Below are positions 1-36,737 of a DNA stretch of 38,598 nt, one piece after another. The stretch's first letter is position 1; each line of letters starts with the position of its first letter. The stretch comes from a virus. The notes below the pieces were generated by a model. It searched no databases, was not told the origin of the DNA, and saw only the letters and a program-made list of their open reading frames with translations. The position numbers and the translations under genes were made by a program. Location: the IMG/VR virus record IMGVR_UViG_3300037344_000012, positions 1 to 38,598 of that record; one strand, 5' to 3'.

Positions 1-64
1 CAGCATCACGAGCAGCATCCCAAGCAGCATCAGAAGCTGCTTTTAGTTCTTCTAGTTTAGTCAT
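1..64 (-). CDS. Alanine-rich tandem repeat protein, partial at window edge
   Basis: This is the start of a fourth copy of the alanine-rich family found at 64-757, and the window edge cuts it. It begins MTKLEELKAASDAAWDAARD, identical to the N-terminus of the next copy. Its ATG shares one base with the TAA of the upstream copy (TAATG), so translation is probably coupled. The Shine-Dalgarno AAGGAA lies inside the last codons of the upstream copy. Bases 1-127 match 201-327 exactly, so this copy is a recent duplication. Function unknown. Confidence 0.7.
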   Translation of the reverse strand, partial: MTKLEELKAASDAAWDAARDA

Positions 65-264
65 TAGGTTGTTTCCTTTGTTTTCTTCAGTTCAGCTTCA
101 TACGCAATCCAAGCATCATAAGCAGCAGCATCAGCAGCCTCCCAAGCAGCAGCCCAAGAAGCATCACGAGCAGCATCCCAAGCAGCAGCATCACAAGCAG
201 CAGCATCACGAGCAGCATCCCAAGCAGCATCAGAAGCTGCTTTTAGTTCTTCTAGTTTAGTCAT
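64..264 (-). CDS. Alanine-rich repeat protein (array copy)
   Basis: A 66-aa protein with N-terminus MTKLEELKAAS, an A/D/W/R-rich centre built from AAWDAARDA-like units, and C-terminus YEAELKKTKETT. The pattern predicts one long amphipathic helix or coiled coil. No enzymatic motif, signal peptide or membrane segment is visible. It overlaps both neighbouring copies by one base. The codons for its C-terminal KKTKETT contain the AAGGAA ribosome site of the next copy, so the duplicated unit carries its own translation signal. I do not recognise a family; repeat slippage could also explain the composition. Confidence 0.72.
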   Translation of the reverse strand: MTKLEELKAASDAAWDAARDAAACDAAAWDAARDASWAAAWEAADAAAYDAWIAYEAELKKTKETT

Positions 265-512
265 TAGGTTGTTTCCTTTGTTTTCTTCAGTTCAGCTTCA
301 TACGCAATCCAAGCATCATAAGCAGCATCAGCAGCCTCCCAATCAACATCAGCAGCATCATCAGCCGCAACACGAGCAGCAGCAAGAGCAGCAACACGAG
401 CAGCAGCCCAAGTGCGCCCGCCAGCATCAGCAGCACCCCAAACATCATAAGCATCACGAGCAGCATCAAGAGCATTATCAGAAGCTGCTTTTAGTTCTTC
501 TAGTTTAGTCAT
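264..512 (-). CDS. Alanine-rich repeat protein (array copy)
   Basis: An 82-aa paralog of the neighbouring copies with the same N-terminus (MTKLEELKAASD) and C-terminus (AYDAWIAYEAELKKTKETT). The alanine-rich centre is longer and more diverged, with a G/R/T insertion (about residues 26-35). Its ATG overlaps the upstream stop as ATGA, and the Shine-Dalgarno AAAGGAAAC lies in the upstream gene. Termini are conserved and the centre varies, as expected from repeat slippage inside a maintained frame. Function unknown. Confidence 0.72.
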   Translation of the reverse strand: MTKLEELKAASDNALDAARDAYDVWGAADAGGRTWAAARVAALAAARVAADDAADVDWEAADAAYDAWIAYEAELKKTKETT

Positions 513-757
513 TTTGTTTCCTTTGTTTTCTTCAGTTCAGCATCATAAGCCTCGTAAGCAGCAGCAAAAGCATCAGCAGCAGCAGCGGCACCGCCCCACT
601 CAGCATCATAAGCAGCATCACGAGCGGCCTTGAGTTCTTCTAGCTTAGTCATTGGTTCATCCCTGACTAGGGCTAGGATAGCGTCGGCTGTAGCCGAAAA
701 ACCATAGCCTTCATAAGCTATCAAAAGGCCCTTAATCTTATCTCGCATGTTAGTCAT
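509..757 (-). CDS. Two-part protein: small phage domain plus alanine-rich copy
   Basis: The 82-aa frame joins a non-repeat N-terminus (about residues 1-35, MRDKIKGLLIAYEGYGFSAT then ADAILALVRD) to a full array copy starting at residue 36 (MTKLEELKAARDAA). The N-terminal part resembles a short stand-alone protein common in phages, with a helix and an ADAILAL motif. The second ATG (position 652) has an AGGGATG sequence just upstream and may be an independent internal start. This is the founder-side end of the array. Function unknown. Confidence 0.65.
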   Translation of the reverse strand: MTNMRDKIKGLLIAYEGYGFSATADAILALVRDEPMTKLEELKAARDAAYDAEWGGAAAAADAFAAAYEAYDAELKKTKETK

Positions 758-893
758 TGGTTTGTTCCCCTTCTTCGATATTTATAAACTTAATCCAGAT
801 ATTGCCATCTGCGAAGTCTTCCACGACTTCCCAATCAGAGTCGCCCTCTTCGATTATAGTGTCGAGCCAGTTAAAAAAGTCTTCACGGTTCAT
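750..893 (-). CDS. Small acidic hypothetical protein
   Basis: A 47-aa acidic protein starting MNREDFFNWLDTIIEEGDSD and ending GEQTND. The ATG is preceded by AAAGGAACC at good spacing. The stop lies 8 bases inside the next gene, which is typical of the tight packing here. Acidic and aromatic residues alternate (W, F and I among E and D), giving a small alpha/beta look, but no family is certain. It may be a small host-takeover protein, but nothing in the sequence proves that. Confidence 0.6.
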   Translation of the reverse strand: MNREDFFNWLDTIIEEGDSDWEVVEDFADGNIWIKFINIEEGEQTND

Positions 894-3258: not shown

Positions 3259-3301
3259 AGTATGTCCTTTCAGAGACAGTTGGGTTATTTGATGTTTCTT
3301 C

Positions 3302-3330
3302 ATTATAGAGGGGTAGATTTCCCCACTTTT
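3302..3330 (-). promoter_or_regulatory. Candidate promoter for the accessory gene unit
   Basis: A perfect TATAAT (3302-3307 on the minus strand) lies downstream of the tape-measure terminator and about 45 bases before the first small gene. The 17-base spacer contains a short GGGG/CCCC inverted repeat, which could be an operator or part of a second hairpin. The -35 position reads AAAAGT, a poor match to TTGACA. This may be a bacterial-type promoter needing an activator, or a chance match. Confidence 0.35.
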
Positions 3331-3368: not shown

Positions 3369-3396
3369 AAAAAAGGCCACCCCCGAAGGGATGACC
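3369..3396 (-). terminator. Rho-independent terminator after tape measure
   Basis: On the minus strand GGTCATCCC pairs over nine positions with GGGGTGGCC around a TTCG loop and is followed by six T. It lies 28 bases after the tape-measure stop codon, ending the structural unit. The C(TTCG)G loop is the exceptionally stable tetraloop type. It belongs to a family of similar hairpins in this window. Confidence 0.85.
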
Positions 3397-3423: not shown

Positions 3424-6400
3424 CTAGCGACGACCCCGTTCCTTGTTAGTGGCATTAACACCGCCAGTAATCTGTGGCATCATCTTGACAATCTCTTTAC
3501 GAGTTTGACGAGATACATCCCCAGAAACATTGATGTTGTACACTTGCTGTTGCTGTTGTGAGTTGTTGTTGCCCATACGAGATACATCGTTCTTTGACAA
3601 AACAACTTCACCTGGCATAAGCATAGCAGGGACAGAGTCCTTACCAGCCTGTGATGTCGAAGTGCTTGGCACGATACCACCTTGGGAGAACCCAAAGATA
3701 GAACCAATGCCACCGAGGAGTGATGAGAAGAAGCCACCCTCGCCACCGATACCTGAAAGCATACCGCTAATTGACTCAAACATACCTGAGAAGATACCGC
3801 CCAGAGAGTCTAACAACCCGCCGCCACTAGCACCACTAGCGCCGTCAACTCCGGATTTAATGCCTTTCTGAACAGTGGCACCAACCTTGTCACCAAAGCC
3901 TAACATACCTTGGAAGATCCCTGCGAGGGACTCTCCAAGACCACCTTCTCCACCAAACAAAGCGTCTGTGAAGCTCTGTGTGAAGCTATTGATAATGTTG
4001 GAAGTGAAGCTATCAGCTAGTGCTGTAAAGAACTCCTTGGTGTCACCTGACATGAGGAGTTGGGATAGAGCACCTTGGAAGTCAGCTTGGAAGCTATCAC
4101 TGTATTGTTCAGCAAGAGCTTTAGCATCGGCGGCTGCGCTTGATGTAGTAACAAGATTAGAAACTTCTTCTTCAGAGCCTTCTGTCAGTATTGTGTTTTG
4201 CTCTGCGGTTAAATTTAGAAGCTCCTGAATGAGACCGTTGAGTTCAGCGACTGCTGCGTCATCTCCGCGACGTATCGCTTCGTTGCGCTGACGAACAAGA
4301 CGACCACCTGTTTGAGAAACATAACCCCCAGCACTAAACTGAGGTAGCATTCCTTTGTTGAGCAGGTCTAGCTTGTCCTTACCAAGGGCTTGAACAGCAG
4401 ACGCCTTAATGACGTACTCACCGTTAGACAACATCGCAGGGATGCTGTCAGAGGTGCCTGTACCAGCGCCACGAACAGAACCCCCAGTTGCGTATCCACT
4501 GGGTGTCAGTGCAGACTCTGGGGCGCGCGTTACTAACTGTGCAAGGGCAGGGTTGTCTGCCAGTAGCGATAAAGCTTCGTCTATAACTTCCGCAGCTTTC
4601 TCCGCGTTAGTCGAGAACCCAAACAGACCAGTCCCCATTTGAATCAGGGATGTTTCGGAACCTAAAACATTTTCTTTAAGCTTGTTTAGGGCCTCTGGGC
4701 CAAGGGTTGCAAGAGTTTCGGCGTCAGCGATGCCGTTCGCTATCTGAGCCGAAGCCGACTCACCAGAACTACCAGCAACATCTCTGGCGATGCCCACTTG
4801 CTGTTCTTCTGAGGTTTCACCAGAGAAGACTCTCTTGACACGATTGACAACCTTGTTAGTAGCGCTAGTTAGAAGATCAGACAAGATGTCTGCCGCGATT
4901 GCGACTGCCGCGACTATACCTACTTGTATTGCTAAACCAATCATCGCGCCTAGCGCAGAGCTGGCGGCAACTAAGGCTGGTGCCGTTCTTGCAGCAACTA
5001 GTGCTGATCTTAACGCAGCTGCTAAAGCGGCAGCGCCAGTTGCTGAGAACATGTATGCCACCATCTTGAGACCTAGCCCAAGTAAGAGTTTAGTTAGCTT
5101 TGGTGCCATAACAAAGGCTCCAAGGGCAATGAGTAGTGCCTGCCCAAGTTTTGTTCCGAAATCACTCTCGAAACCCTCCCCAAACAAGCCAATTAAAAAC
5201 TCGTCTGCAAGGTTCTCTGTTAGGGTGAGAATCCCTGCGAGGATGTCAGCAACAACATCGCCGTCTTCGGCAAAGGCATCTGCTATAAGTTTACCAAAAC
5301 CTCTGGCAACGTCACCTGCGGCTGTCTGGAACTCGGCATTATCCTTAAGACTTCCAATAGCAAAAAGAAAGGCTCCTATGAGGCCCCCTCTGATTGCAAA
5401 CCCTCGTAAAGGTTTGTTAAGCGCTGCAGCTAAAGCAGTTGTGATTACAGCCGCAAGTTGGTCGGAGTTGCTATTGAAGTAGCCTTTGATTTCCGCTTTA
5501 CTTTCATTCAAAGATTTAACCAAAGAACCAATAGCGATCACAAGGGGGGTTCCCTTGATCAGACCAACTGTTTTATTCCAAGCACTCTTAACAAGTTCTA
5601 CGGCCTTGTCAAAGCTTCTTTCGAGTTCAAGAGACAAGGGTAAGTCTTTTCCTGTCTTCAAGTAAACATAGTCAGCAAACGCATCCCAGCCACGGGACAT
5701 AGTATCCATAGTGGCTTTCCAAGCAGTAGATAGCCCGCGAGTAATGTTTGTCTTAAGCCCACCTGTTTCTTCGATACCTGTGATCATCTGTTGCCAGCGA
5801 TCAGCAACCTCAAAGTGAAGACCTTCAAACACGCCGATAAGGGCGGTAGCCCAGCTGCGGATATACCCTGTTGCAGTGTCTAAGTGAACACCCCACGCGT
5901 CGGTGTTGCCAATAGCAGCCTTACCACCTTCTTCGTGGTTACGGTCAAATATGCCTGTCCAGAGAGACTTACCAACAATCCGTTCCCAAATCTCGTAGAA
6001 GATACCAACCACGTTATCGCGGAACTGGCGGAGGCGGGCAAGAGCAGTACTAAGCCCTGTAAACACACGGGTAGATAAGTCTACCTGTGTTATAGCCTCG
6101 TCCATTCCGATGTAGCCCGCTTCTCGCCGCCACATGTTTTTAACAACGTCTTTGATTTCTCCGACTTTAGTTACAACAGTGTTGTACGCCTCAGTAAGGG
6201 CCGCTGAAACGTTGTCTACTAAAGCTTTTGTGTCCAAGTCTTCGGTAAACAACTTACCAAGGAACTCCCCAACATCTTGGGCAAAGAACTTTATTTCAAA
6301 CTTTAGGAGTGTGAAGTTTGCCCTTGCAAGCAAAGCCCAACGACCAATGTTTTCACCAAGGTATTTAACCGCCGTAGTGGCCAGCAGAATACCGTCTTTG

Positions 6401-7170
6401 ATGTCCGCAGACACCCCGATGGCCTTGTCCATCTCAGCGATGGCTCGTGTGAACTGATCTTTAAATACAGTACCAAGACCAGCAACGGTTGAGTTCATAG
6501 TCAAGAACTCTGTTTCCATCTTAGTTGCGCCATCAGTGATAGCGTCGAATACTGCTTCTGCTGTTAACAAACCGTCTTGTGCTGCCTTGCGAAGTTCCCC
6601 AAAAGGAATCCCCATACCTTCAGCAATTGCTTGTGCTAAACGAGGCATACCTTCGAGTACGGAATTCAATTCCTCGCCACGAAGTTGACCAGAGGACAAG
6701 CCCTGTCCAAGCTGAACAATAGCCGCCTTGGCTGTTTCAGCAGAAGAACCTGAAAGGATTGCCGCTTGTTGAACTGCTTCTGTAACAACAAGGAGTTGTG
6801 AGGCAGACTTGCCAGAGTCTTTTAGTGCTAAACCGAATCGGCTGAAGGTCTCGGCAGCAGCATCTACGCCACCACGGGAACGTTCCGCAATGTCAAAAAG
6901 CTCCTTCATAACCACTTTAGTTTTACCGAGGTCTTGTGTGACCAGGTTAACGCGGTTGCTGAGGTTTGTCATTTTGTCAGAGGCTCTTGTGATACCCTTT
7001 GTCAGGGCTCCGCCTGTGAATATCGCAGTAATACCAACAGCCATCTTCTGGAAGCCACGGGTTAGCTTTTGTGTTCTTACGTCTAAGTTGTTTAGGGAGC
7101 GTTCCAGCTTCCCTAGTTCGTTTGTGGCCTGTCGAGCATTTGCTCTGACCTTAATTTCTACTCCACTCAT
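3424..7170 (-). CDS. Tail tape measure protein
   Basis: A 1248-aa protein and the largest single-frame tail gene; its length sets tail length. The N-terminus is a basic, helical tape-measure domain (about residues 1-250) with SRFGLALKDSGKSASQLL and GQGLSSGQLRGEELNSVLEG, typical of the family. Hydrophobic stretches follow at roughly 590-615 and 690-785, expected for a protein that enters the membrane at DNA ejection. The C-terminal part has two copies of a glycine-rich motif (SDSIPAMLSNGEYVI and DSVPAMLMPGEVVLS). The start is fixed by AAGGAGAT upstream. A terminator lies just before it, so its level is likely lowered relative to the tail tube. Confidence 0.95.
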   Translation of the reverse strand: MSGVEIKVRANARQATNELGKLERSLNNLDVRTQKLTRGFQKMAVGITAIFTGGALTKGITRASDKMTNLSNRVNLVTQDLGKTKVVMKELFDIAERSRGGVDAAAETFSRFGLALKDSGKSASQLLVVTEAVQQAAILSGSSAETAKAAIVQLGQGLSSGQLRGEELNSVLEGMPRLAQAIAEGMGIPFGELRKAAQDGLLTAEAVFDAITDGATKMETEFLTMNSTVAGLGTVFKDQFTRAIAEMDKAIGVSADIKDGILLATTAVKYLGENIGRWALLARANFTLLKFEIKFFAQDVGEFLGKLFTEDLDTKALVDNVSAALTEAYNTVVTKVGEIKDVVKNMWRREAGYIGMDEAITQVDLSTRVFTGLSTALARLRQFRDNVVGIFYEIWERIVGKSLWTGIFDRNHEEGGKAAIGNTDAWGVHLDTATGYIRSWATALIGVFEGLHFEVADRWQQMITGIEETGGLKTNITRGLSTAWKATMDTMSRGWDAFADYVYLKTGKDLPLSLELERSFDKAVELVKSAWNKTVGLIKGTPLVIAIGSLVKSLNESKAEIKGYFNSNSDQLAAVITTALAAALNKPLRGFAIRGGLIGAFLFAIGSLKDNAEFQTAAGDVARGFGKLIADAFAEDGDVVADILAGILTLTENLADEFLIGLFGEGFESDFGTKLGQALLIALGAFVMAPKLTKLLLGLGLKMVAYMFSATGAAALAAALRSALVAARTAPALVAASSALGAMIGLAIQVGIVAAVAIAADILSDLLTSATNKVVNRVKRVFSGETSEEQQVGIARDVAGSSGESASAQIANGIADAETLATLGPEALNKLKENVLGSETSLIQMGTGLFGFSTNAEKAAEVIDEALSLLADNPALAQLVTRAPESALTPSGYATGGSVRGAGTGTSDSIPAMLSNGEYVIKASAVQALGKDKLDLLNKGMLPQFSAGGYVSQTGGRLVRQRNEAIRRGDDAAVAELNGLIQELLNLTAEQNTILTEGSEEEVSNLVTTSSAAADAKALAEQYSDSFQADFQGALSQLLMSGDTKEFFTALADSFTSNIINSFTQSFTDALFGGEGGLGESLAGIFQGMLGFGDKVGATVQKGIKSGVDGASGASGGGLLDSLGGIFSGMFESISGMLSGIGGEGGFFSSLLGGIGSIFGFSQGGIVPSTSTSQAGKDSVPAMLMPGEVVLSKNDVSRMGNNNSQQQQQVYNINVSGDVSRQTRKEIVKMMPQITGGVNATNKERGRR

Positions 7171-10342: not shown

Positions 10343-11461
10343 TTAAGCGTGGAAGATAGGCAGGATGCCCAAGTTCAATGCGTCCATTTTACGTGTGTAC
10401 GAAGCGCCAGCGCCCATAGTTGCGTTAGTAGCGAATGCGTTAGATGCACCAGCCCAGTCGTAACCCATTGGGTGGTTGATGAAGCCCCAACGGTACCATA
10501 CGTTTGTAGAACCACCACCGAGGTAGGACGCAGCAGCGCGGTCTACTTCAACTGGAGTTGGCATGTTGATTGCAGTTGCAGCAACAGAACCCGGCTTGAC
10601 AATGAATGAGCACTTAGTAGAAACAGCGTTCAAATCGCCAGCTGTGAAGCCAGAAACCATCTGGTTTGCACGAGTCATAACCAAGCGGAACTTGCCACCG
10701 AAGATTGTTGAGAACTCAAGGTTGCCATCTGTAACTTGGGTTTCGTCAACCAAGTTGGCAGCACGCATTTCAGCCATCACTTCAGGGGAAGTAACCATGT
10801 ACATGAAATCAGGCTCATGGTCTTTGAATGTAGCGCCAATAGATTTGAACAGACGCTCACCACGGGCAGCACCCATAGCGGACGAGTCGAACAACTTACG
10901 AGCATCGCCAGCACCAGTTGCAGCAGCACCGTGAAGGCCAGCAGCGTTGATGTCACAGAAGAATCCAGTTGCAGCTACGTCACAGTCAGTATCATAATCG
11001 ATAACCCCACCGTTACCAGTACCAGCAAGGTCGCCAAGAGCAACTTCGCTCAATGCTACGCCTTTGAGGACTGACAACAGAGCATCGTGCTCGTCTTGTG
11101 CGCGGACTTCAGAGAAGTCACGAGCGATTTTAGCCAGACCGTCTTGCTTAGAGACAACTTCTTGCATGTTAACTTGCTCTGCACCGAAAGTACGAACAGT
11201 CTTAACGTAGTTAGCAACGTCAGTTGCGATGTCAGTGTAAGTACCGTCAGTTGCGGAAGACAAAGAAGCAACGTTTACGTTTGCGGAGAGGGGCTTGTAC
11301 CAGCGGAACTGGCCTACGAAAGATTCGCCGGATGCGTCGATGCGCTGGTCGGAAGCAACGATGCCTGTGCCGTTAAGCTTCTTAGCAGTCGAGTAAGCTT
11401 CGTCGGAGTAAGCGGAGATTGCCAGAGCAATGTTCTGGAAGTCTGTGTTTGTAATAGCCAT
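10343..11461 (-). CDS. Major capsid protein
   Basis: A 372-aa protein starting MAITNTDFQNIALAISAY, directly after an acidic scaffold gene. Composition and length fit an HK97-fold capsid subunit. There is an N-arm, an elongated E-loop region (GQFRWYKPLSANVNVASLSS), a long spine helix with many charged residues (VVSKQDGLAKIARDFSEVRA) and a conserved-looking C-terminal LNLGILPIFHA. No N-terminal protease-cleaved delta domain is evident, so the separate scaffold probably directs assembly. The ribosome site AAAGGAAT supports the start. Confidence 0.92.
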   Translation of the reverse strand: MAITNTDFQNIALAISAYSDEAYSTAKKLNGTGIVASDQRIDASGESFVGQFRWYKPLSANVNVASLSSATDGTYTDIATDVANYVKTVRTFGAEQVNMQEVVSKQDGLAKIARDFSEVRAQDEHDALLSVLKGVALSEVALGDLAGTGNGGVIDYDTDCDVAATGFFCDINAAGLHGAAATGAGDARKLFDSSAMGAARGERLFKSIGATFKDHEPDFMYMVTSPEVMAEMRAANLVDETQVTDGNLEFSTIFGGKFRLVMTRANQMVSGFTAGDLNAVSTKCSFIVKPGSVAATAINMPTPVEVDRAAASYLGGGSTNVWYRWGFINHPMGYDWAGASNAFATNATMGAGASYTRKMDALNLGILPIFHA

Positions 11462-11497: not shown

Positions 11498-12166
11498 TTA
11501 TAGGTTGAAGTTACCTAGTTTGCCCTTAGAGGCAAGAGCTAGAATTTCTTGAGTTGACATTTCACTGATAGACTTTGAAACATCAGTCGAAGGCGCTCCA
11601 GCTGGATTGCCTGTACCTGCTCCGGAGTTAGACTTAACACGGAACAGGAATGAGTTATCTTCGGACTTAGCATAAGCTTCAACGTAGTCACGAATATTTG
11701 AACCTGTGGAGTGCAACCATGCACCCTCTTCGTTTTGAACCAATTGGTCAACGATTTCTCTGCGAGCCATGTCGCGAGACTTTTCGCTGCGGAATTCCAT
11801 GCCAGCAAGTGCATCATTCAATACACCGTCGCGCTTAAGCTTAGTTGTCTCAGTTGCGTAGACGTCTAGTTTAGCACGGGCTTCGGCAAGTTCCATTTCA
11901 AGAGCTTCTTGGACTTTGCCCTCTTCTTTCATGCGAGCAATAGTTGCTTCCTTTGCGGAGGCTTCCATTTCTGCTTTAAGTTTGAGAGCTTCGTCACGCT
12001 CACTGACCATACGGTCCATGTTAGCTTTCATCTTAGCTAAACGTTCTTCAACGATTGCTTCGACGCCATCTACAGGAGCTTCTGGAGCAGCTGGTGTTTC
12101 TAGTGTTTCTTCTTCAACAACAGGTTCTACTGGTGTTTCTACTTCTTCGATAATGTTATCGCTCAT
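11498..12166 (-). CDS. Capsid scaffolding protein
   Basis: A 222-aa protein with a very acidic, proline-containing N-terminus (MSDNIIEEVETPVEPVVEEE), a long coiled coil at about residues 35-105 (ERLAKMKANMDRMVSERDEA and on) and a flexible Ser/Gly-rich C-terminus. This is the usual design of phage scaffolds, which template the procapsid and then leave. Its place directly before the capsid gene and after the MuF gene is canonical. AGAGGAAAT provides the ribosome site. Confidence 0.9.
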   Translation of the reverse strand: MSDNIIEEVETPVEPVVEEETLETPAAPEAPVDGVEAIVEERLAKMKANMDRMVSERDEALKLKAEMEASAKEATIARMKEEGKVQEALEMELAEARAKLDVYATETTKLKRDGVLNDALAGMEFRSEKSRDMARREIVDQLVQNEEGAWLHSTGSNIRDYVEAYAKSEDNSFLFRVKSNSGAGTGNPAGAPSTDVSKSISEMSTQEILALASKGKLGNFNL

Positions 12167-12262: not shown

Positions 12263-13277
12263 TCACGGACCAATCCCGTACCAGTCATTACCGGGACGGA
12301 TACTTTCAAGCAATTCTTTTGGAGTAATCTTATTTGGAGGGTCAATTAAACCATCGTCTTTTGCTCGTTGTAGATACCTATTATATGTCGCCCTTGACAT
12401 ACCAGACTTTCGCATTGCTTTGAGAGTCTTATGAATGGTGCCTTCTTTTAGCGCATCTGCGTAGATTTGCCGAAGAGCCCATTTAGCGGGAACCGCTTCA
12501 CCAAGGTTCGAGAAAAACGCATCATGGATAGTTCCAGTGTCTACGTTATTTTTCTTCCCCCAAAGGTGGAATTGACGGACAATCACAGCATCGTTACTGT
12601 GGTTTCCGTTAACACCAAGCCCAATCGCGGCGTCTTGAATGGACTGCGGGGAGGCTAGTTTGCCATCCGCACTTGGTGCTTCGTATAGGTTAAAGACTTT
12701 CTTACCTGTAACAGGGTCTGTAAAGTCTATTCTTACTTGTTCCTTAACACGATATCTTTGCATCATGGTTTTACCATCAAAAGTAACCCAAGGAATGTCA
12801 ACTGATCCAGACTCTTTAACGAAGTCTTTAGCAATGTCTTTCCAGAAGTTAATAAACTTACCAGTAACGGGAACTTCTTTTTCTAACTGACGTGACATAA
12901 TCCCTGAAATCTTCTCGAACAACCGAGTACCTACAAGGTCTCCTGTTTCATCGGTAAGCTTCATTAAGAATGTGTGCATGTCTTCAGAGTTCTTCATACC
13001 CTCCCTAAACTCTGACCTTGCGGTCTCATAGAGAGAGTCTGTGATAGATGTTCCTTCCTTGGAAGCAGCAACTACTTGTTTCTTTAAGTCGCGCAGTTCA
13101 TCAATGCGAGACCAATTCTTTCTGTCCATTTCAAAGCTAATCTTAGCGTCAATGGCAGCTTTAAACTTATCAACTTCTTTTGTGGAGATAGCGATCTTAC
13201 CCTTCTTGGCAAGAACCTTCGCGAACTGGTTGGCCACGTTAGCAGCCTTAGTCGCGTCCCCGGCTCCATAAAATGCT
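12263..13277 (-). CDS. MuF-RNA polymerase fusion, exon 2 (polymerase C-terminal half)
   Basis: Exon 2 encodes residues 1144-1480 of the spliced protein and has no start of its own; the splice completes a split Val codon at 1143. It begins AFYGAGDATK, finishing the fingers motif whose Tyr1146 aligns with T7 RNA polymerase Tyr639. Further T7-like blocks follow in order: IPWVTFDGKTMMQRY (compare HWVTPDGFPVWQEY in T7), GVNGNHSNDAVIV (compare NFVHSQDGSHL) and TGTIHDAFFSN, where His1394-Asp1395 match T7 His811-Asp812, the second catalytic Asp. All catalytic residues are kept. A GTG inside the exon could only start a catalytically useless fragment. Confidence 0.88.
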
Positions 13278-13304
13278 CGTTTTATTTTGTGTTCAACAAG
13301 GTAG

Positions 13305-13838
13305 TCAATCCTTGCCCGATAAATAAAAGGCTTCCCCTCGTTTTACCATACGTCCAACTGTTCTGTGGCTAATGCCCAGTTGTTCAGCGGCCTTACGAGA
13401 AGACTTGTATACAACACCCTCAATGCTTACTTGCTTTGACAGGTGGTGGTTATCATTCAATCGTTTAGAAAGGTTAGCACCAAAACCTTCAGGTTTAGGG
13501 CGTCCCTTGTGAAGCTTAGAAATGGCTTCTTTTTGCTCACTACTTAACTTTACACCTTGTCTAACCAAGCTTTGTGCTTTGTTTATAGATTTAGGTTTTA
13601 TGTTATGTCTACCAGACATCATCGTAAAGGCAAAAGCCATAGATTTGTTTCTATGTATTTTCCACAATAAGTGATGTGCGGTATAGTGAGCCTTGAATGT
13701 TAAGTATACAAGGTTGTCTTCATCATCTGTGCCGCCCATAGATTTAGGAAGGATGTGGTGGCGTTCTGAGTAGTACTCAGGTTTGCTTTTCACACCGTGT
13801 TTCCTTATGAGTTCATCATAATGATTTTTGTAGTTCAT
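13305..13838 (-). CDS. Intron-encoded HNH homing endonuclease
   Basis: A 177-aa protein with an HNH nuclease core at about residues 26-56 (SERHHILPKSMGG, NLVYLTFKAHYTAHHLLW), a NUMOD-type DNA-binding segment (KLHKGRPKPEG, about 108-118) and a C-terminal IENR1/NUMOD1-like helix-turn-helix (YKSSRKAAEQLGISHRTVGR). Such enzymes cut the intron-free allele so that repair copies the intron. It lies downstream of the ribozyme S element, leaving the catalytic core intact, and its stop is 27 bases from the 3' splice site. An AAAGGAAAAT ribosome site precedes it. Confidence 0.92.
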   Translation of the reverse strand: MNYKNHYDELIRKHGVKSKPEYYSERHHILPKSMGGTDDEDNLVYLTFKAHYTAHHLLWKIHRNKSMAFAFTMMSGRHNIKPKSINKAQSLVRQGVKLSSEQKEAISKLHKGRPKPEGFGANLSKRLNDNHHLSKQVSIEGVVYKSSRKAAEQLGISHRTVGRMVKRGEAFYLSGKD

Positions 13839-13884
13839 TTATTTTCCTTTTATTTATCCGCTATATGTCGCCATATAGACCAGA

Positions 13885-14025
13885 CTATATCTTAAACTCT
13901 TTCAGCTTCCCCATTAAAACAGCCCATTCAGGTTTGTCGTAATGTCGTTTCCACCACTTAAGGGGTTTAGCGGTTGCACCTCTTGGTGCTTCATAGTAGA
14001 GTTTCTCTGCTTTTCCATCTGACAT
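13885..14025 (-). CDS. 46-aa frame inside the ribozyme core
   Basis: A 46-codon frame starting MSDGKAEKLYYEAPRGATAK and ending in KLKEFKI, with a GAAAGGAGTACATCTAA ribosome site. It sits in the segment between the R and S core elements (P8 side) and its stop codon TAG is part of the S element. The peptide is basic with WW and W residues (PLKWWKRHYDKPEWAV), like a small nucleic-acid binding protein. It may be a remnant or a maturase-like aid, or simply P8 sequence that happens to be open. No family recognised. Confidence 0.4.
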   Translation of the reverse strand: MSDGKAEKLYYEAPRGATAKPLKWWKRHYDKPEWAVLMGKLKEFKI

Positions 14026-14141
14026 TTAGATGTACTCCTTTCGGATAGTCGTTGAACGTTCCCCTTTCGGGGCTTCGCTGCTGATTGTCTCATTTCTGAG
14101 ATGTTCCAGCAATTAACAGAGTTTATACATGGCAACATTTC

Positions 14142-17100
14142 ACCATGTTTTGGTTTTTGGCAGCCTTCATAAGGTCTGTCCAGTCTAGGTCGAGTTCTGC
14201 AAGTTCAGGTATAGCTAAAAACTCAGGGTCGGCTACAGTCCGTTTAGCAATCTCATCGTAGAGTCTTTGCTTTTTAGAGGTCTGTAGCACGTTAGACAGT
14301 TCACCCGCAGCACGGTCTCCTGTTGATAAAGAAATAATCTGAGCTCCAGAGGAACTAGCATCATTCTCAATCATCATCTTGGTTTTGTACTGTGAAATAA
14401 GCTTAAGGTCTTCAGGTGTCCACTGAGTTTTATCAATGACCATACGACCACCCATGTGCTTATAAATACGTGTGTACTCAAGGGCAAGACGAGCAAGTTT
14501 ACCAATCTCTTTATCCTCAGTAGCAGCTGCCAGTGGGTTAGATAGGAATTCCTTAATGCGTCGGTCAGGCTGTGTTTTACTTAACATGGCTTCACCCATA
14601 GCCAAGAGGTTTTCTTCTTGGTCTTTGAAAGCCTTTAAGCGACCCTTCAAGGTAAGTGTGTCAAGTGGACTACCCACCAGTGCCCCGATTTGTACCTGAA
14701 GTTCCTCAATAGCATCTGAGTTTATTCGCACAGCCCTAGAGGTGTTCAAGAACGGACGAACCGCTTCCCCTTTGGTGGGGGTTAGTAGTCCACGGTGATA
14801 AACACGACCACGAAAGTCAATAGAAGCATCAACAGAAAAAGCTTGGTTACGCTGGCGATAGAATTTGGCAGTAGCTAAAACACCACGACCGTCATTACCA
14901 CGAGACATAAAGAGCTTCTTCCACTCGTTAACTGAGTCCCACTTCTTAGCTTCACCGCGTTTGTCATTAAAATAAATAACACGTTCAGCAAAGTCAAAGA
15001 AGTCGTTGTCAACCTCGTACTTAACAGAAGTTGCGTGATTTAACATACCAGATATATCGCGGTCAATCTGGTTGGCGTCATAGTCAGCATAGACCCTTTC
15101 GGAAACTACTGGCATCCTAGTCTTGCGACCACGAGCGTCATAGTATTCTTTACTGCCTGCACGAGCATAGACTTTATCACGGGGGTGATAGATGCCGAAG
15201 CGACGTGCGGTACGTGCCTTCTCTGCTGAAATCTGTAGCTGGCGCATTGGCCCGTTTACGATTGTCAGCTGGCGAGTAACGCTTACACCACGGAGAGCTT
15301 TGTCACTAACTGGTCGACCTGTGGCCAAATCAATAGGAGAGGAAGTTCCAATGTCACGGATAGTAGTTGTACGGATCATCCCCTGTTTTTCAAGAGAAGC
15401 AATAATACGACTACCATCTTTGTGGAAATCTTTTAAAGACTTTGAGCGAAGTGGGTTAAGACTACCCAGTTCATCATCAAACATCTTGCCAATCTTGATT
15501 GCAAGCATGTCATAGTCTGCGCCGTCAGCAGTTGCAATTGACTCCATTGCTTTGGCAGTTGCCTTGATAGTTTTGTCTTTAATATTCTCAATAGCCTTCC
15601 TGCGGTCTCGACTGTGTAGAAACTCTAAATCCAGAAGTTCTCGTGTCTTACCTCGTAAGTTTGATATCTGTGTAGTAATCCAGCTATCTGAGGGTGGAGT
15701 CTTTTCAAAGAACTTTTCAAGACGCTTCTTGGCCTTGTATCCGGGTATCTTTTCTAAAAGCTTCTTTACAATTTCCTTACGACTAGGGTACCTACTAATA
15801 ATAGGTTGTGTGTAAGCTGCAATAGGGCCTCTGCCGTTGTAGTAAGCCTTTTTAGCTAGCTTTGAGCCATACTTACCGCGCCACGTTTCAATGTAGCGGT
15901 TGTCTGCAATTTGACCGTCTATCAGCTCTGAGATAGTGTATTTCTTGTTAAAGATAAAGACTTCAGGGTCGTTGGCTAGTTTTGCAGTTAAAGACCCAAA
16001 TAACTTACCACGATCTGAACTACGGTTAAACATAAGGGTACCTAAGTCTTGTACTGCGTTAAGAGTGAACTTACGCATTACAGAGGTAGGTTTACCCCAA
16101 GCTTCACCTGTAGCGTTATACCTTGTAAAGGTTTGACGCAACACATCAGTGATTACAGATTGTTGGTTTATAGAGATGTCTTTCCCCAAGTCACCTACAA
16201 AGTCAGTTATAAACTTCTTCTGTGCGGGCTCTAGTGCATCACTTTCAATAACACGGGCCAGTCGCTCTTGTAGGACTTCTGGTTCTTGTGTTTGTAGGTG
16301 ACGACCAGCACCGCTCGTATAGTCTGCCCCATCGGCATTCATAACAGAACCTTCACGGCTGTTCTTGAAAGACCTTCGGCTACCTTGCTTTTGTGACAAA
16401 GAGTTACCTTTGAAGTCAGTAAGAGCTAGTGCTTGAGCGTTTTCAGCTGCATCGTTCTTAAAGTGTTCACGAAGAGCAACACGATTAGCCTTAGAAGACA
16501 TGAGTTCATCTGGCGTAGAGAAGCCAAGGTTTACATTACTCTCGTTCTGCGCAGTGGGCCGTGTTACAGTTTTATTTGCACGACGCATTAGACCAGCGAT
16601 AGATAGGGCCTTGCCTACTGGTGAAACAAACTCCGAGGCCAGTAGCTTACCTTGTTGGAAAAGCTTAGCCTGACGTTCCCCCCCTAAGTTCTTAATCTGA
16701 ACTGCGGTAGACTGGCGACGAAGCCAATCTGAGTAGGTCTTAATTTTTGAAGGTTCCCCTGTCAACTCTGTGGGGTTCATATTCTTAAGGTTTCTTGGTT
16801 TAATGTTCTTAGACTCAAGGGCCTCAAGATCAGCCTTATCCTTTACAACTGGCACCATTGTTGAACGACAGTTGAAGTGCAAAGGGGGCTGATAGCGAGT
16901 ATCCCCCACCTTGTAAACTTGACCATTGTGGAAAGAGCAAATAGAGCTAGTGCGACCGTCCAAGATAGCAGTAAACATAAAGCCATTCAAGACTTCCTTG
17001 TTTGCTTCCATAAGATTGCCAAGAGCTTGTGTCTGCACACTTGTCATAGAGGTGCGGGTCAATGTCCTAGCTTGGTGTTCAGTTATCTTAGTTGTCTTCA

Positions 17101-17569
17101 ATACATCTTTTATGATATCATTTTGGGTTAGCCCATTAGCTAAACCTGCTTTGACTTTAGTCTGAATTCTTACAAGCTCACCAGAAGCAATGTTGGACAA
17201 GTTATCTTTAACAGTTCTAACGCCCTTGATGCGCGGCCCTGTTATTTCTGATAGCAATTCTTTGGTTGTTGGCTTCTGTGTTCTGTAGAACTTCTTAATC
17301 TCGGAGTCAAGGTTGTTCTTATGAAAGGCAGTCTCAGCTGTAAACAACTCAGACAAGCTACTAGAAACAGATTTGTTCATTTCGTTACCGAAACGAGTAA
17401 CCTCTGGCTTTACGCTAGACCTAATATCCTTCTTCAGGATCTCTGCTAGGTTCTTTCGGTGTTGTCTAATAATATTTCGTTGTGCGAGTTGCTGACCGTT
17501 TTCATAGAGACGAAGGTCTCCACTGTGGTCAATAATCCTATCGAAAATCTTTTCATTTATTCCAGTCAT
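14142..17569 (-). CDS. MuF-type head protein fused to T7-like RNA polymerase, exon 1
   Basis: Exon 1 encodes residues 1-1143 (the last codon is split) of a 1480-aa protein. Residues about 150-243 form a MuF domain with HQARTLTRTSMTSVQTQ and DGRTSSICSFHNGQVY, then PPLHFNCRST, as in minor head proteins such as SPP1 gp7. Residues about 250-900 are a long linker and N-terminal polymerase region without motifs I can name. Residues 918-924 are DFRGRVY (T7: DWRGRVY); Asp1070 in NDASSSGAQ matches T7 Asp537, the first catalytic Asp; Lys1138 matches T7 Lys631. The gene follows portal and precedes scaffold, the standard MuF position. GAGGTAAAACGA precedes the ATG. Unspliced RNA would end after five intron-coded residues. 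Confidence 0.92.
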
Positions 17570-17574
17570 TCGTT

Positions 17575-18060
17575 TTACCTCGTTGGCGCGTACTCACCGT
17601 AGTATTTTACTTCGGCCTTTCTGCGTGCTTGGGTCGCGCCCTCAAGTGTGTCGAACATACCTAGCTGCTTTCGCTTGCCATTTATGTTTATTCGAGCTGT
17701 CCACTTTTGTTCACGACTACGGAATCCTACTCCCGTGACACCCGACTTATTGTTCGAAGGTGTCTTTCTATTCATATTATTTTGAGACGGAGTTACTAAC
17801 CTCAGATTCTTAATGAGGTTGTTACATTTGTTTCCGTCTATATGGTCTATAATAAAACCTTCAGGAATGCTGCCGTTGTGCAGTTCCCATATGATTCTGT
17901 GTTCGGGGCTCTTTCTTCCTAAAAAATGAACTCTACGATAACCCCCACCTGTTGCACAGAAGTGGCCTACACGGTATCCTGCCTTAACTAGGTGGTTGTC
18001 TCTGTCATATTTAGCGAGAAGTTTTCCCTCTTCGTAAATGAAGTGTTTATTGTAATCCAT
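17575..18060 (-). CDS. Free-standing HNH endonuclease with AP2-like domain
   Basis: A 161-aa protein with an HNH_3 core (SPEHRIIWELHNG, then GFIIDHIDGNKCNNLIKNLR, about residues 50-88) and a C-terminal AP2/ERF-like DNA-binding domain (SGVTGVGFRSREQKWTARI, then LGMFDTLEGATQAR). This is a mobile homing nuclease that inserts between phage genes. It sits between portal and the MuF gene, where the two are normally adjacent. Flanking hairpins and a tRNA-like segment look like insertion-associated DNA. No ribozyme core is visible around it, so it is not intron-borne. Confidence 0.92.
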   Translation of the reverse strand: MDYNKHFIYEEGKLLAKYDRDNHLVKAGYRVGHFCATGGGYRRVHFLGRKSPEHRIIWELHNGSIPEGFIIDHIDGNKCNNLIKNLRLVTPSQNNMNRKTPSNNKSGVTGVGFRSREQKWTARININGKRKQLGMFDTLEGATQARRKAEVKYYGEYAPTR

Positions 18061-18114: not shown

Positions 18115-18196
18115 TGGTTAATTAGAGAATTGAACTCTTTCTACTCGTGTCACGACGCCTGTGATGACTTTAAGTAGCTGCAAACCTGCTTTAACC
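18115..18196 (-). other. tRNA-like segment, not a functional tRNA by inspection
   Basis: An 82-base stretch between the portal stop and the HNH gene. Its ends pair like an acceptor stem (GGTTAA with TTAACC), and near the 3' end it has a T-arm-like AGAG-TTCAATT-CTCT with a canonical seven-base loop. The D arm is reduced to GCA/TGC. The only anticodon-like stem (TCAC/GTGA) has a loop without U33. It may be a decayed tRNA or a structured RNA left by insertion of the neighbouring nuclease gene. Confidence 0.3.
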
Positions 18197-19770
18197 TAAT
18201 TATCTTCTACCTTGACTTTGTCGCCTTCTAGCTCAGTGTTAGAGACTAGGGGGTCAACTTGAATAGCTGCAACAGCTTCTTCATCGTCATAGTTAGCAGG
18301 TAGGAAGTCGTTGTACTTAGCAATAGTGATGAAAGTATCACGAGAAATAATGCCAGACTGGTACCATTCAGCAACAAGACGCATAGAACCTTCTCCACCC
18401 ACAGTAGCTGCGAAGTCGGAGGACAACTGGAATTCAACATCATTGCCCGTAAGCTCTGTGTCATACTTCCAGTTAATCATAAAGGAAAGAATCTCTTGCA
18501 TAGTACCAGAGATTTTAGCGTTCATTGTTCCTAGCTGTGCTGTCTGAGAAGCGTTACGAATCTCTAGAGCAACACCTGAAGCGGCTTGTTCTGGAGACAA
18601 CATACGGATGCCCATCTTGGCCATCTCACCAACGGTGGCTTCAATAGCACGGTCCATGTCCCCTAAAGCACCTGTTGGTGTTTCGAGTACAGTGATGGAC
18701 TCGTCCTTACGAACCCGCAACCAAGTACCAAGACCAGCACCAACGAGTTCTTCAAACTCTTCGTCAGTCATGTCAGACTGTACCACTGGTGTGTAGGTTG
18801 CCGCACCGTATAGTAGGTGGTTACGACGGGATACTTTGTTGTAGAGGGCTACTTCTCTGTCAATCAGAGGCATAAGTACTGGTTCAATAGGCTCAATCTG
18901 ACCATTCAGAGGCCAAGCAGGAATACGGCTTAGACGCTGACCAAACTTCATTGGGTAGACTGTATCATACTTCTGGAAACCACCATCAGCAGAATCTTCG
19001 TACTCTTGAGTAATAACGCCGTTAAGTGCTTCTACTTCATGAGAGCCGTGAGCCTTCTTGTAGTAATCAAGAACCAACAAACCCTGTTCATCAAGGTAGT
19101 GGTCACAAACAGTATCTACATAGTTAGGGTGCCAAGGGTTCTCTGCCGTGTATTCTTCAGTAATATACCGAGTAGTCCAACGACTAAGAGTTTTAGCACG
19201 AGTAACTGGGTGTGTCTTTGTCTGAACGTTAATGACATTCTCAGCCTTAATCAAAACAGGATAAGGGGAGATCATATTACGTTCTTCAGGTGACATGTAT
19301 TCTAGCTCTTCATCAGATATAGAAGGGCGGTCAATATAAACCCAAGCACGGGAGGTTTGTAGTTCTTCCCAGATGGCTGCGTCCAAGAAGTTGAACATAG
19401 AAGCACCATCTAGTGTAATGTCTTTTTCAAGCCAATCACGAACATCATCCCCAAGACCATCTGGTAAAGTCAGTGTGGAAGGTTTACGGAGCAAAGCACT
19501 AATCAACACACGAGCATACTGGGTTGTTAGACCGGGTAGTTCAGCTTCAGACTTGTAGAAGTCATACTGTGTTTGTGTCATGCTTGGGGAGAAAGGGAGA
19601 AGGAGATTAGAGTAATCACGCTCTACATACTCATCGTGGGCTTTGGCGTGAGCTTCACCTTGTAGTACCGCGCGGGCTTTCTTCCACAAGGGCTTCATAG
19701 ACATGTAAGAAGCACTGGGGGTTTCTACTCCACGTTTCTGTGTATTAGCTGCTGTCTTTACTAGAGCCAT
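18196..19770 (-). CDS. Portal protein
   Basis: A 524-aa protein with start MALVKTAANTQKRGVETPSA. It resembles the DUF4055-type portal family: an N-terminal PLWKKARAVLQG helix and DYSNLLLPFSP, a central YARVLISALLRKP, a clip/stem region with MPLIDREVALYNKVSRRNHL, and a C-terminal crown-like acidic tail. The portal forms the twelve-fold ring through which DNA passes. It precedes MuF, scaffold and capsid. The motor gene terL is about 15 kb upstream, separated by the tail-tip and fibre genes. GAGGTAATAAT precedes the ATG, and a regulatory gap with a terminator lies upstream. Confidence 0.9.
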   Translation of the reverse strand: MALVKTAANTQKRGVETPSASYMSMKPLWKKARAVLQGEAHAKAHDEYVERDYSNLLLPFSPSMTQTQYDFYKSEAELPGLTTQYARVLISALLRKPSTLTLPDGLGDDVRDWLEKDITLDGASMFNFLDAAIWEELQTSRAWVYIDRPSISDEELEYMSPEERNMISPYPVLIKAENVINVQTKTHPVTRAKTLSRWTTRYITEEYTAENPWHPNYVDTVCDHYLDEQGLLVLDYYKKAHGSHEVEALNGVITQEYEDSADGGFQKYDTVYPMKFGQRLSRIPAWPLNGQIEPIEPVLMPLIDREVALYNKVSRRNHLLYGAATYTPVVQSDMTDEEFEELVGAGLGTWLRVRKDESITVLETPTGALGDMDRAIEATVGEMAKMGIRMLSPEQAASGVALEIRNASQTAQLGTMNAKISGTMQEILSFMINWKYDTELTGNDVEFQLSSDFAATVGGEGSMRLVAEWYQSGIISRDTFITIAKYNDFLPANYDDEEAVAAIQVDPLVSNTELEGDKVKVEDN

Positions 19771-19910: not shown

Positions 19911-19929
19911 TCATTATTCCGCCCTATTT
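19911..19929 (-). repeat. 19-bp direct repeat, copy 2 (portal-proximal)
   Basis: The minus strand reads AAATAGGGCGGAATAATGA, identical over 19 bases to 20021-20039, 110 bases upstream. This copy lies just after the terminator T run. The ATAGGG core recalls phage-polymerase initiation sites such as the T7 TATAGGGAGA, which is notable because the phage encodes a T7-type polymerase. A promoter role is speculative. Confidence 0.6.
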
Positions 19930-20020: not shown

Positions 20021-20039
20021 TCATTATTCCGCCCTATTT
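20021..20039 (-). repeat. 19-bp direct repeat, copy 1 (after endolysin stop)
   Basis: The minus strand reads AAATAGGGCGGAATAATGA and begins directly after the endolysin stop codon. It is identical to 19911-19929. The two copies flank the terminator, so they are either paired control sites or the product of a small duplication. Confidence 0.6.
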
Positions 20040-35579: not shown

Positions 35580-35909
35580 CGTTTATGTTCAGTAAAGTTC
35601 GTTAGGCTTTACCCGAAGTGAGTTATGTTGTTTTTATTATTTTGAATTGGCCTGTTAAGGGGCATAACTCACTTCTGCTCATAGTTTCCTATGAGACCAG
35701 ACTATATCTTACACAACTCTTATGCTGTGTCCTCGCGCTTCCACCCACTTGGGTGTACTTCCTAGTAGCATAGCTACCGTAACGGAATAGTCGTTGCACG
35801 TTCAACCTAGGGTAATAACTAGGAAGCTTCGCTCAGGGTTGCCTTGCACCTTAGAGGTGTTTAGGGTTTCTCTGAATTCACGAGATTTAGAGTCGGCTAA
35901 TATAAAATC
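35580..35909 (-). ncRNA. Group I self-splicing intron without ORF, in terL
   Basis: A 330-nt intron. P1 pairs GTCGGT (35915-35910) with GCCGAC (35897-35892), placing the U-G pair at the 5' splice site. The Q region reads CCTGAGCGAAGC (around 35825), R is GTGCAACGACTA (35799-35788) and S is AAGATATAGTCTGG (35710-35697), giving P7 GACTA/TAGTC. The intron ends in G at 35580. Splicing keeps the frame and restores DFNVG-IMASC. P10 is weak. R and S are nearly identical to those of the intron at 13278-14141, so the two are related. No reading frame lies inside. Confidence 0.92.
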
Positions 35910-36737
35910 ACCGACGTTGAAGTCAATAGCAATGTGGACATCTTCACCTGTCTCAAAGTAAGGTAGGTTCTTGTCGATATGCTCACTACGATTAAACGTA
36001 TAGAACACAGTGTTACCAGAGTCCTCAAAGGAGGCAGAGTATTCTCTGGCAAATTTCAAAGGGTCTAGTGTTAGCTTAACCCGCTCAATCTCGTCATCAT
36101 CTAGATACGGAGAGTCGTGATAGGTATAGGTATAGCTCTTCCACTGTGCATCAGCGTCTTGTCTGTTGTACATCTCGTAGAAGTAGTTATAGCCCATTGG
36201 GGTACTAATGATTAGTGCCTTACCTGGCTTAGCGCCATGCTTGGCAGCGTTCTTCTTAGACCAACGGGTTGATATGCAGGGTTGAATGACTGACTCCCAA
36301 CTCTCTTTCAAGTTAGAACCAGCACCCTTCCAAGAGCATACCTCATCGGCTACTACGAAATACTGACCACTACCCCGCATACGCTCACTAGCTTCATACG
36401 ACCAAATCTTTAGTTGTACGTTCTTAGGGAACCAGAAGGTACCAGCTACACGACTAGACTTAATAGCATGTTCTTCCATGCCTAGCTGATAAGCCAGTAA
36501 AGGGAAATAGATATCAATCGCTTGCTGATAAGTCGGGGCTATGATAGCTACATTCTTGTTAGGCACATCAGAGTCTAGCTCCATCAGTTCTTGTACTGCT
36601 ATTACTGCTGCGCAAGCAGCGAGGTAGGACTTACCGAAACCTCGGCTCGCGTTAACCACAGCATAGCGCGTATCGTCTTCTATAAACAGGTCAGAGATAA
36701 TCTGCGACTGTCCTTCGTGGAGGATTACTTCACTCAT
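35910..36737 (-). CDS. terL: Large terminase, exon 1 (ATPase motor)
   Basis: Exon 1 encodes residues 1-276. The start MSEVILHEGQSQIISDLF was chosen because GGAAGG precedes it at the end of the HNH gene. The Walker A-like SRGFGKS is at about residues 31-37 and the Walker B FVVADE at about 127-132, followed by a coupling region with LIISTPMGYNYF. The exon ends in AIDFNVG, with the first nuclease Asp. TerL is the ATP-driven DNA packaging motor that docks on the portal. Without splicing the frame would continue 35 codons into the intron and stop. Confidence 0.95.

Follow-up and report, generated by a model that had tools for sequence, protein, structure and literature searches.

A phage MuF head protein fused to a T7-type RNA polymerase, a candidate virion enzyme for early transcription

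The IMG/VR virus record IMGVR_UViG_3300037344_000012, analyzed over its whole length of 38,598 bases (the window), carries a gene, which we name MuF-RNAP, in which a MuF minor head protein is fused to a single-subunit RNA polymerase (RNAP) of the T7 type. Comparison with other sequences confirms that this fusion is real. The gene probably encodes an RNAP that is carried in the virion and injected to start early transcription, with a MuF part (residues ∼1-340) carrying the T7-type polymerase (∼543-1477). A polymerase built into the head and injected with the DNA had been proposed in a first-pass annotation of the window. The fusion, the polymerase fold, the catalytic residues, and the location in the MuF slot held up against other sequences and a structure model. 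Support for the delivery part of that proposal is indirect and comes from a second, free RNAP, from a late-type motif upstream of the operon, and from a separate motif in the early block; we infer promoter function and assignment, packaging, injection, and activity.

MuF-RNAP lies on the minus strand in two exons, as follows.
14142..17569, minus strand: MuF-RNAP exon 1, residues 1-1142 and two bases of codon 1143, with the splice point placed using intronless homologues.
12263..13277, minus strand: MuF-RNAP exon 2, polymerase, from the remainder of codon 1143 through the stop.
16856..17167, minus strand: MuF domain, residues 135-238 (Pfam PF04233, phrog_241, and the N-terminal model of a relative).
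14142..15943, minus strand: exon 1 part of the predicted single-subunit RNAP, from residue ∼543 (structure match of the relative L006, transferred by alignment).
14360..14362, minus strand: Asp1070 (T7 Asp537), catalytic palm motif in DASSSGAQ (motif and alignment).
12521..12526, minus strand: His1394-Asp1395 (T7 His811-Asp812), catalytic palm motif (motif and alignment).
13278..14141, minus strand: group I intron within the presumed O-helix codons (Rfam RF00028).
13305..13838, minus strand: HNH homing endonuclease open reading frame (ORF) within the intron (Pfam HNH PF01844, above cut-off).

The predicted reading frame of 1480 amino acids (aa) was recovered, since joining 17569-14142 to 13277-12263 gives 1480 codons with no internal stop. 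The motifs listed for it are all in the spliced protein, i.e. DFRGRVY at 918, D1070 in DASSSG, M1142 and Y1146 in MVAFYG, WVTFDG at 1306, and HD at 1394-1395. The splice point was accepted because intronless homologues read through the site. The uninterrupted gp28 of the cultured roseophage DSS3_VP1 reads NMVTFYGAG where the spliced window reads NMVAFYGAG, and L006, a single open frame without an intron, is 82% identical to the spliced window protein. The intron core (14151-13861) matches the group I model RF00028 at 91.8 bits (E 1.8e-22), above the gathering score of 50, and an I-TevI DNA-binding domain in the intron ORF falls just under the Pfam cut-off. Breaks recur at or near one codon in many family members, and seven of the nine split relatives tested carry a group I core at the break. 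Loci L137 and L143 have no such core at that threshold, and in L118 the break maps elsewhere than in the other split loci. The first reading frame of EBPR siphovirus 1 stops at the same place (NMVKCC), and the group I model found no match at its gathering score in that split. MuF-RNAP was matched in at least three pieces in different frames in G047, G063, G018, and G045, which suggests several introns per polymerase gene. A second group I intron (71.3 bits) is located at the terminase large subunit gene of the window (35678-36003, minus strand), and the DSS3_VP1 annotation likewise gives its terminase as two parts, with a group I intron there.

Two scans of IMG/VR returned at least 537 and at least 534 confirmed relatives, and 80 of each were kept. 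An uninterrupted frame spanning both halves is present in 60 homologues, among 154 IMG/VR loci and two GenBank phage records, and 41 are left once copies at least 90% identical are removed. The remaining fetched loci are cut by a contig end, split, or MuF-only. The lowest identities to the window, about 30%, occur in the most distant clade. Among GenBank phages, matches to the exon 2 half were confined to DSS3_VP1 (two records), DSS3_PM1, and EBPR siphovirus 1. In DSS3_VP1 (Naomviridae; laboratory host Ruegeria pomeroyi DSS-3) the homologue is gp28 (QGH74596; 1463 aa), annotated only as minor head protein-like/head morphogenesis. A genome_contigs scan for a prophage or host origin found three loci, two of them from one Gammaproteobacteria bin and one MuF-only, and the five matches listed in a plasmid scan, of 21 records, are all MuF-only. 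Elsewhere in DSS3_VP1, the genome end (44600-75087, our locus L161) has metabolic genes, annotated as nicotinamide phosphoribosyltransferase and glutathionylspermidine synthase.

The PHROG RNA polymerase family phrog_414 matches exon 1 (E 5e-16) and exon 2 (E 2.2e-7), and Pfam RNA_pol shows a weak similarity, below its cut-off, to the window protein. A profile of 40 relatives compared by sequence with the PDB had T7 RNAP as its best match (E 4.5e-6), with D537, WVTPDG, and H811-D812 aligned. As assessed by structure prediction on the intronless L006, the polymerase fold that the first-pass annotation had called is indeed predicted. An AlphaFold2 model of L006 residues 330-1479 has a mean pLDDT of 80, and its best PDB match in Foldseek is T7 RNAP (E 8e-19). 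VIA-align gives Z 30.2 for T7 RNAP (3.8 Å over 519 residues), Z 28 for mitochondrial RNAP, and Z 20.2 for the N4 mini-virion RNAP (vRNAP). The T7 RNAP match begins at about model residue 214 (L006 residue 543) and covers the T7-like N-terminal region in part.

Loss of the two catalytic Asp in relatives, which the same annotation had named as a refutation, was not seen. D1070 and D1395 are present in all 61 alignment rows (60 uninterrupted homologues and the window), as are D918, R920, R922, Y924, K1138, Y1146, G1147, W1306, and H1394; M1142 and D1310 are found in 60 rows and G1311 in 57. With T7 residue numbering verified on the T7 record, the palm aspartates T7 D537 and D812 align in both MAFFT and full-length profile alignments. 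The proposed equivalence of K1138, M1142, and Y1146 to T7 K631, M635, and Y639 varies with the alignment used. The spacing is the same and the residues are aligned in three of eight trimmed profile runs, and the equivalence is absent from the MAFFT and full-length profile alignments. It is likely but alignment-dependent, resting mainly on motif spacing.

Comparison of coding sequences shows MuF-RNAP to be under purifying selection. The ratios of nonsynonymous to synonymous substitution (dN/dS), which are rough because synonymous sites are near saturation, are 0.063 for MuF, 0.081 for the middle, and 0.058 for the polymerase between the window and L006, and 0.086, 0.115, and 0.128, respectively, between L029 and L018. 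In a polymerase tree, whose deep branches are long and unsure, MuF-RNAP stands apart from T7, SP6, and the free second polymerase described below, and the fusion rows and the rows of that free polymerase each form one side of a branch. The N4 rows are too long to place, and we therefore make no claim on the origin of the polymerase.

The MuF domain is at the N terminus as predicted, and its limits moved from about residues 150-243 to 135-238, where Pfam PF04233 matches with E 1.1e-13 and 52.3 bits, above the curated cut-off of 29.6. The head morphogenesis family phrog_241 matches residues 1-366 (E 8e-52). A model of residues 1-420 of a relative (pLDDT 79) matches predicted viral head-morphogenesis and minor capsid proteins; it has no match in the PDB (best E 0.84), an absence that is no evidence for a new fold. 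The claim that the gene occupies the canonical MuF slot was upheld by its neighbors, with the portal gene upstream, an HNH ORF between, and the scaffold and major head protein genes after it.
18196..19770, minus strand: portal protein (phrog_145, E 7e-49).
17575..18060, minus strand: HNH endonuclease ORF between portal and MuF-RNAP (Pfam HNH_3, E 1e-20).
11498..12166, minus strand: head scaffolding protein (phrog_206, E 2e-10).
10343..11461, minus strand: major head protein (phrog_247, E 1e-25).

The same portal-to-scaffold/capsid slot holds MuF-RNAP in DSS3_VP1 and in the relatives covering that region. Overall, the order on the minus strand of the window is terminase (with its intron), then the tail and host-specificity genes, followed by portal, HNH ORF, MuF-RNAP, scaffold, and major head protein; tape measure comes next, and small ORFs form a block beyond the terminator-like hairpin. 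Transfer RNA genes were noticed just upstream of MuF-RNAP in L089, L091, and L092, and in DSS3_VP1 one lies between portal and MuF-RNAP (L002:19816-19891).

A free polymerase (RNAP2), identified with phrog_414, accompanies the fusion in 17 of 23 records and in all 11 records of at least 60 kb. Seven of these 11 records have it in a single frame (722-769 aa), and the other four (G011, G017, G018, and G021) have it in pieces or in an enlarged frame. In DSS3_VP1 it is gene 56, and in the polymerase tree it branches with T7/SP6. The window, which is a genome fragment as judged by relatives of about 60-75 kb and more, has a phrog_414 polymerase only in the fusion.

Two classes of promoter candidates were found. 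They are listed here for the window, together with the landmarks that place them.
20021..20038, minus strand: class A (SP6-like) promoter candidate, first copy upstream of portal, exact AATAGGGCGGAATAATGA.
19911..19928, minus strand: class A promoter candidate, second copy (exact-motif scan).
3424..7170, minus strand: tape measure gene (Pfam TMP_3, E 3e-53).
3375..3396, minus strand: hairpin resembling a terminator, located after the tape measure gene and before the class B site.
3300..3330, minus strand: candidate class B (early) promoter, AAAAGTGGGGAAATCTACCCCTCTATAATGA, following the tape measure gene.

Class A is an SP6-like motif with a group-specific sequence, AATAGGTGACGTTAAAGAAG in G011 and AATAGGGCGGAATAATGA in the window; the SP6 record has ATTAGGTGACACTATAGAAG. 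When 10 genomes were each scanned with their own motif, allowing up to three mismatches, 57 sites fell on the plus strand and two on the minus strand. Sites are found upstream of portal in nine of nine genomes and 182-203 bp after the RNAP2 match in seven of nine (689 and 1295 bp in the other two), and there are none between tape measure and RNAP2 in the eight genomes with both landmarks. The window motif was not found in any of 100 shuffles.

Class B is bipartite with fixed spacing and stands at the start of the early block, between tape measure and RNAP2. Its near-clade form is AAAAGTGRGRAAA-N8-TCTATAAYGA, its distant-clade form is TTGCGGAAA-N6-TATCTTATATGA, and the consensus is TGNGRAAA-N6-YMTCTWWWAYGA. 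The joint pattern has 27 sites in 14 genomes, all on the plus strand, and the early block holds 23 of them although it makes up 11% of the sequence. Because the pattern was drawn from these genomes, we count its placement, and not the number of sites, as evidence. The window sequence AAAAGTGGGGAAATCTACCCCTCTATAATGA matches once, behind the terminator-like hairpin, and in none of 100 shuffles. In the clade of the window the core is TATAAT. Distant-clade sites have TTATAT instead, at the same spacing and with much of the flanking sequence preserved. A sigma-70 scan did not call the window site, and in the seven sites tried the -35 region matches TTGACA at no more than two of six positions at any spacing of 15-19. 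A hairpin of the N4 type was considered for class B and rejected, with no conserved stem among the seven sites folded. In G035, portal and terminase are reversed, yet class B stands at the divergent junction ahead of RNAP2. We also observed that terminase and phoH (in G035 portal as well) are on the strand opposite RNAP2 and the replication genes in both G035 and G033, and that class B marks the point of divergence. G013 and G015 carry a short repeat, CCCGTTAAATTAACCC or similar (near 19605 and 66344); in the distant clade such elements stand directly after MuF-RNAP and at other places. The contig end of the window (1-760, minus strand), past the class B site, has repeated small Ala/Asp/Trp-rich reading frames (DAAWDAARDAA-like).

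The near class B pattern is present in 109 IMG/VR stretches, and 68 of the 80 fetched contain the tape measure, RNAP2, or MuF-RNAP of the clade. Twenty-two records from these 80 were searched whole, namely the 12 whose stretch had no clade gene and 10 of the longer records, and MuF-RNAP was found in 11. The 11 without a match are fragments, and the gene could lie outside them: none of the seven fetched has portal together with major head protein, and one of these seven, G037, has no structural landmark at all. The remaining four measure 6-18 kb. The distant pattern is present in 85 stretches. Among the 80 fetched, MuF-RNAP is found in 29 of 34 records of at least 39.8 kb and in all 21 that reach 60 kb or more (two as partial matches at a contig end), and is missing from five of the 34 (41-54 kb). 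This association of class B and MuF-RNAP follows descent and does not alone identify the enzyme reading class B.

We propose the following cycle. Late in infection RNAP2 would read the class A promoters, so that the operon of portal, MuF-RNAP, scaffold, and capsid is made. The MuF part would keep a few copies of MuF-RNAP at the portal inside the procapsid, and these would exit the particle together with the DNA. In the new cell MuF-RNAP would read class B, the early block with RNAP2 at or near its end would be transcribed, and RNAP2 would then take over at class A. MuF-RNAP is downstream of class A and is therefore probably a late product of RNAP2, which would make it useful mainly if packaged; RNAP2 is downstream of class B and would therefore need a polymerase already present at the start. 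That polymerase could be the host enzyme or packaged MuF-RNAP. In favor of MuF-RNAP are the poor -35 region, the change from TATAAT to TTATAT with spacing kept, and the portal-type carrier. The uracil DNA of DSS3_VP1 may make host promoters unreliable.

Several points weigh against the proposed virion polymerase. It is far from T7 in sequence, with 16% identity over the structural match, and its three presumed O-helix residues match T7 only in the minority of trimmed runs given above. No free polymerase was found in six of the 23 records (27-54 kb), EBPR siphovirus 1 included. Class B lacks the conserved hairpin of the kind that N4 vRNAP needs, and a protein of 1480 residues would probably need unfolding to pass a long tail tube. 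In addition, both motifs were drawn from the genomes used for the placement counts, and G002 and G003 look like near copies. Finally, class B has TATAAT in the clade of the window, and host polymerase could thus read it despite the poor -35 region. This leads to an alternative that we regard as unlikely, in which the fusion polymerase is packaged, host RNAP reads class B, and the MuF-bound enzyme serves another step such as transcription-driven genome pull-in. It is in keeping with MuF proteins acting at the start of infection, SPP1 virions lacking gp7 being reported as infectious in ∼25% of cases (PMC6316719). The agreement of the -35 region with TTGACA at two of six positions at most, the window site skipped by the sigma-70 scan, and the distant-clade core TTATAT within retained spacing and much of the flanks argue against host reading.

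Other explanations fit the data less well. It is improbable that the fusion polymerase is a late enzyme tethered to procapsids in the producing cell, with no injection. Its gene is in the late operon behind class A motifs, but the presumed promoters of RNAP2 already serve the late genes, class B, which would then have no phage polymerase to read it, is found mainly in the early block (23 of 27 sites), and MuF proteins are regarded as parts of the head (PMC12226406). Against the very improbable case that the polymerase half is an inactive structural relic, which the sub-threshold Pfam similarity and the recurrence of introns in presumed active-site codons might suggest, stand the catalytic residues invariant in every row, the low dN/dS of the polymerase part in the two pairs computed, and the in-frame splicing of the window intron. 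That two genes were joined by chance, by annotation, or by a chimeric assembly has a negligible probability. The window copy is interrupted and needs splicing, but an assembly artefact or false splice is refuted by the 60 intronless frames, one of them from a cultured phage with a complete-genome record. We thus retain the injected virion polymerase as the preferred explanation.

Among known systems, gp50 of N4 (3500 aa) is likewise a T7-superfamily polymerase inside a large virion protein, in a phage that makes a second, T7-like RNAPII after infection (PMC4496689). N4 vRNAP differs in having other N- and C-terminal domains for injection/encapsidation, hairpin promoters, and a short tail. MuF-RNAP has a MuF carrier, a long tail as judged from the tape measure gene, no conserved hairpin, and a fold closer to T7 (Z 30.2 versus 20.2). 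The hairpin early promoters of N4 have no counterpart at class B, itself a putative early promoter. The proposed mode of working resembles that of N4 vRNAP with RNAPII, but we do not class MuF-RNAP as an N4-type vRNAP, since it has another carrier, motif form, and virion type and a fold nearer T7. A two-polymerase program is also described for the jumbo phages phiKZ/AR9, where AT-rich early promoters near -10 are attributed to the virion enzyme, a precedent for the reading of class B proposed here, and an early gene encodes the second enzyme (PMC7598289). The phiKZ/AR9 enzymes are multisubunit. Uracil DNA is described for both AR9 (PMC7598289) and DSS3_VP1 (PMC12697855). With the T7 and SP6 polymerases MuF-RNAP shares fold and palm motifs, and on the side of RNAP2 the resemblance extends to its grouping with T7/SP6 and to class A, which resembles the SP6 promoter. 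The direct homologue gp28 of DSS3_VP1 is uninterrupted, in the same slot, and accompanied by a second RNAP gene, but it has no intron at the site of that in the window.

The carrier has precedents too. In SPP1 the portal is described as bringing a small number of gp7 copies into the procapsid, which shows a route for a MuF protein to this site (PMC6316719). MuF toxins and SPP1 gp7 also have an N-terminal MuF domain encoded among head genes, and the toxins have a variable C-terminal cargo with proposed head delivery (PMC5512222, PMC6316719, PMC12226406) and use the same portal-adjacent slot (PMC12226406). They differ in that the cargo described there consists of toxin/effector domains and not of a polymerase (PMC5512222, PMC6316719, PMC12226406). 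A further difference is that MuF toxins are associated with temperate phages and the roseophage relatives are described as lytic (PMC13037479). A survey of phage polyvalent proteins reports MuF fused to toxin and effector domains, and N4-like virion RNAPs only in N4-like phages or prophages (PMC5512222). No title or abstract in the open-access literature searched describes a MuF-RNA polymerase fusion; the DSS3_VP1 genome paper lies outside that scope.

The known virion polymerases are those of N4-like phages and phiKZ/AR9-type giants, and MuF-RNAP, if the proposal is true, would be a separate solution. It would place a virion polymerase in long-tailed phages of ordinary size that are themselves common (more than 500 database stretches per scan), and MuF would gain a non-toxin cargo. 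The fusion sat unrecognized in the annotation of a cultured phage, DSS3_VP1. Two promoter candidates and two polymerases are now available for in vitro work, and the passage of a large enzyme through a tail tube and host-independent transcription of uracil DNA become directly testable. Taken together, we lean slightly toward the fuller picture of a further route by which phages bring transcription with them, in which a portal-anchored MuF domain would send a T7-class polymerase down a long tail and this enzyme alone would open infection at a dedicated bipartite promoter. A widespread group of phages, some with uracil DNA, would then be independent of host RNAP from the first minute.

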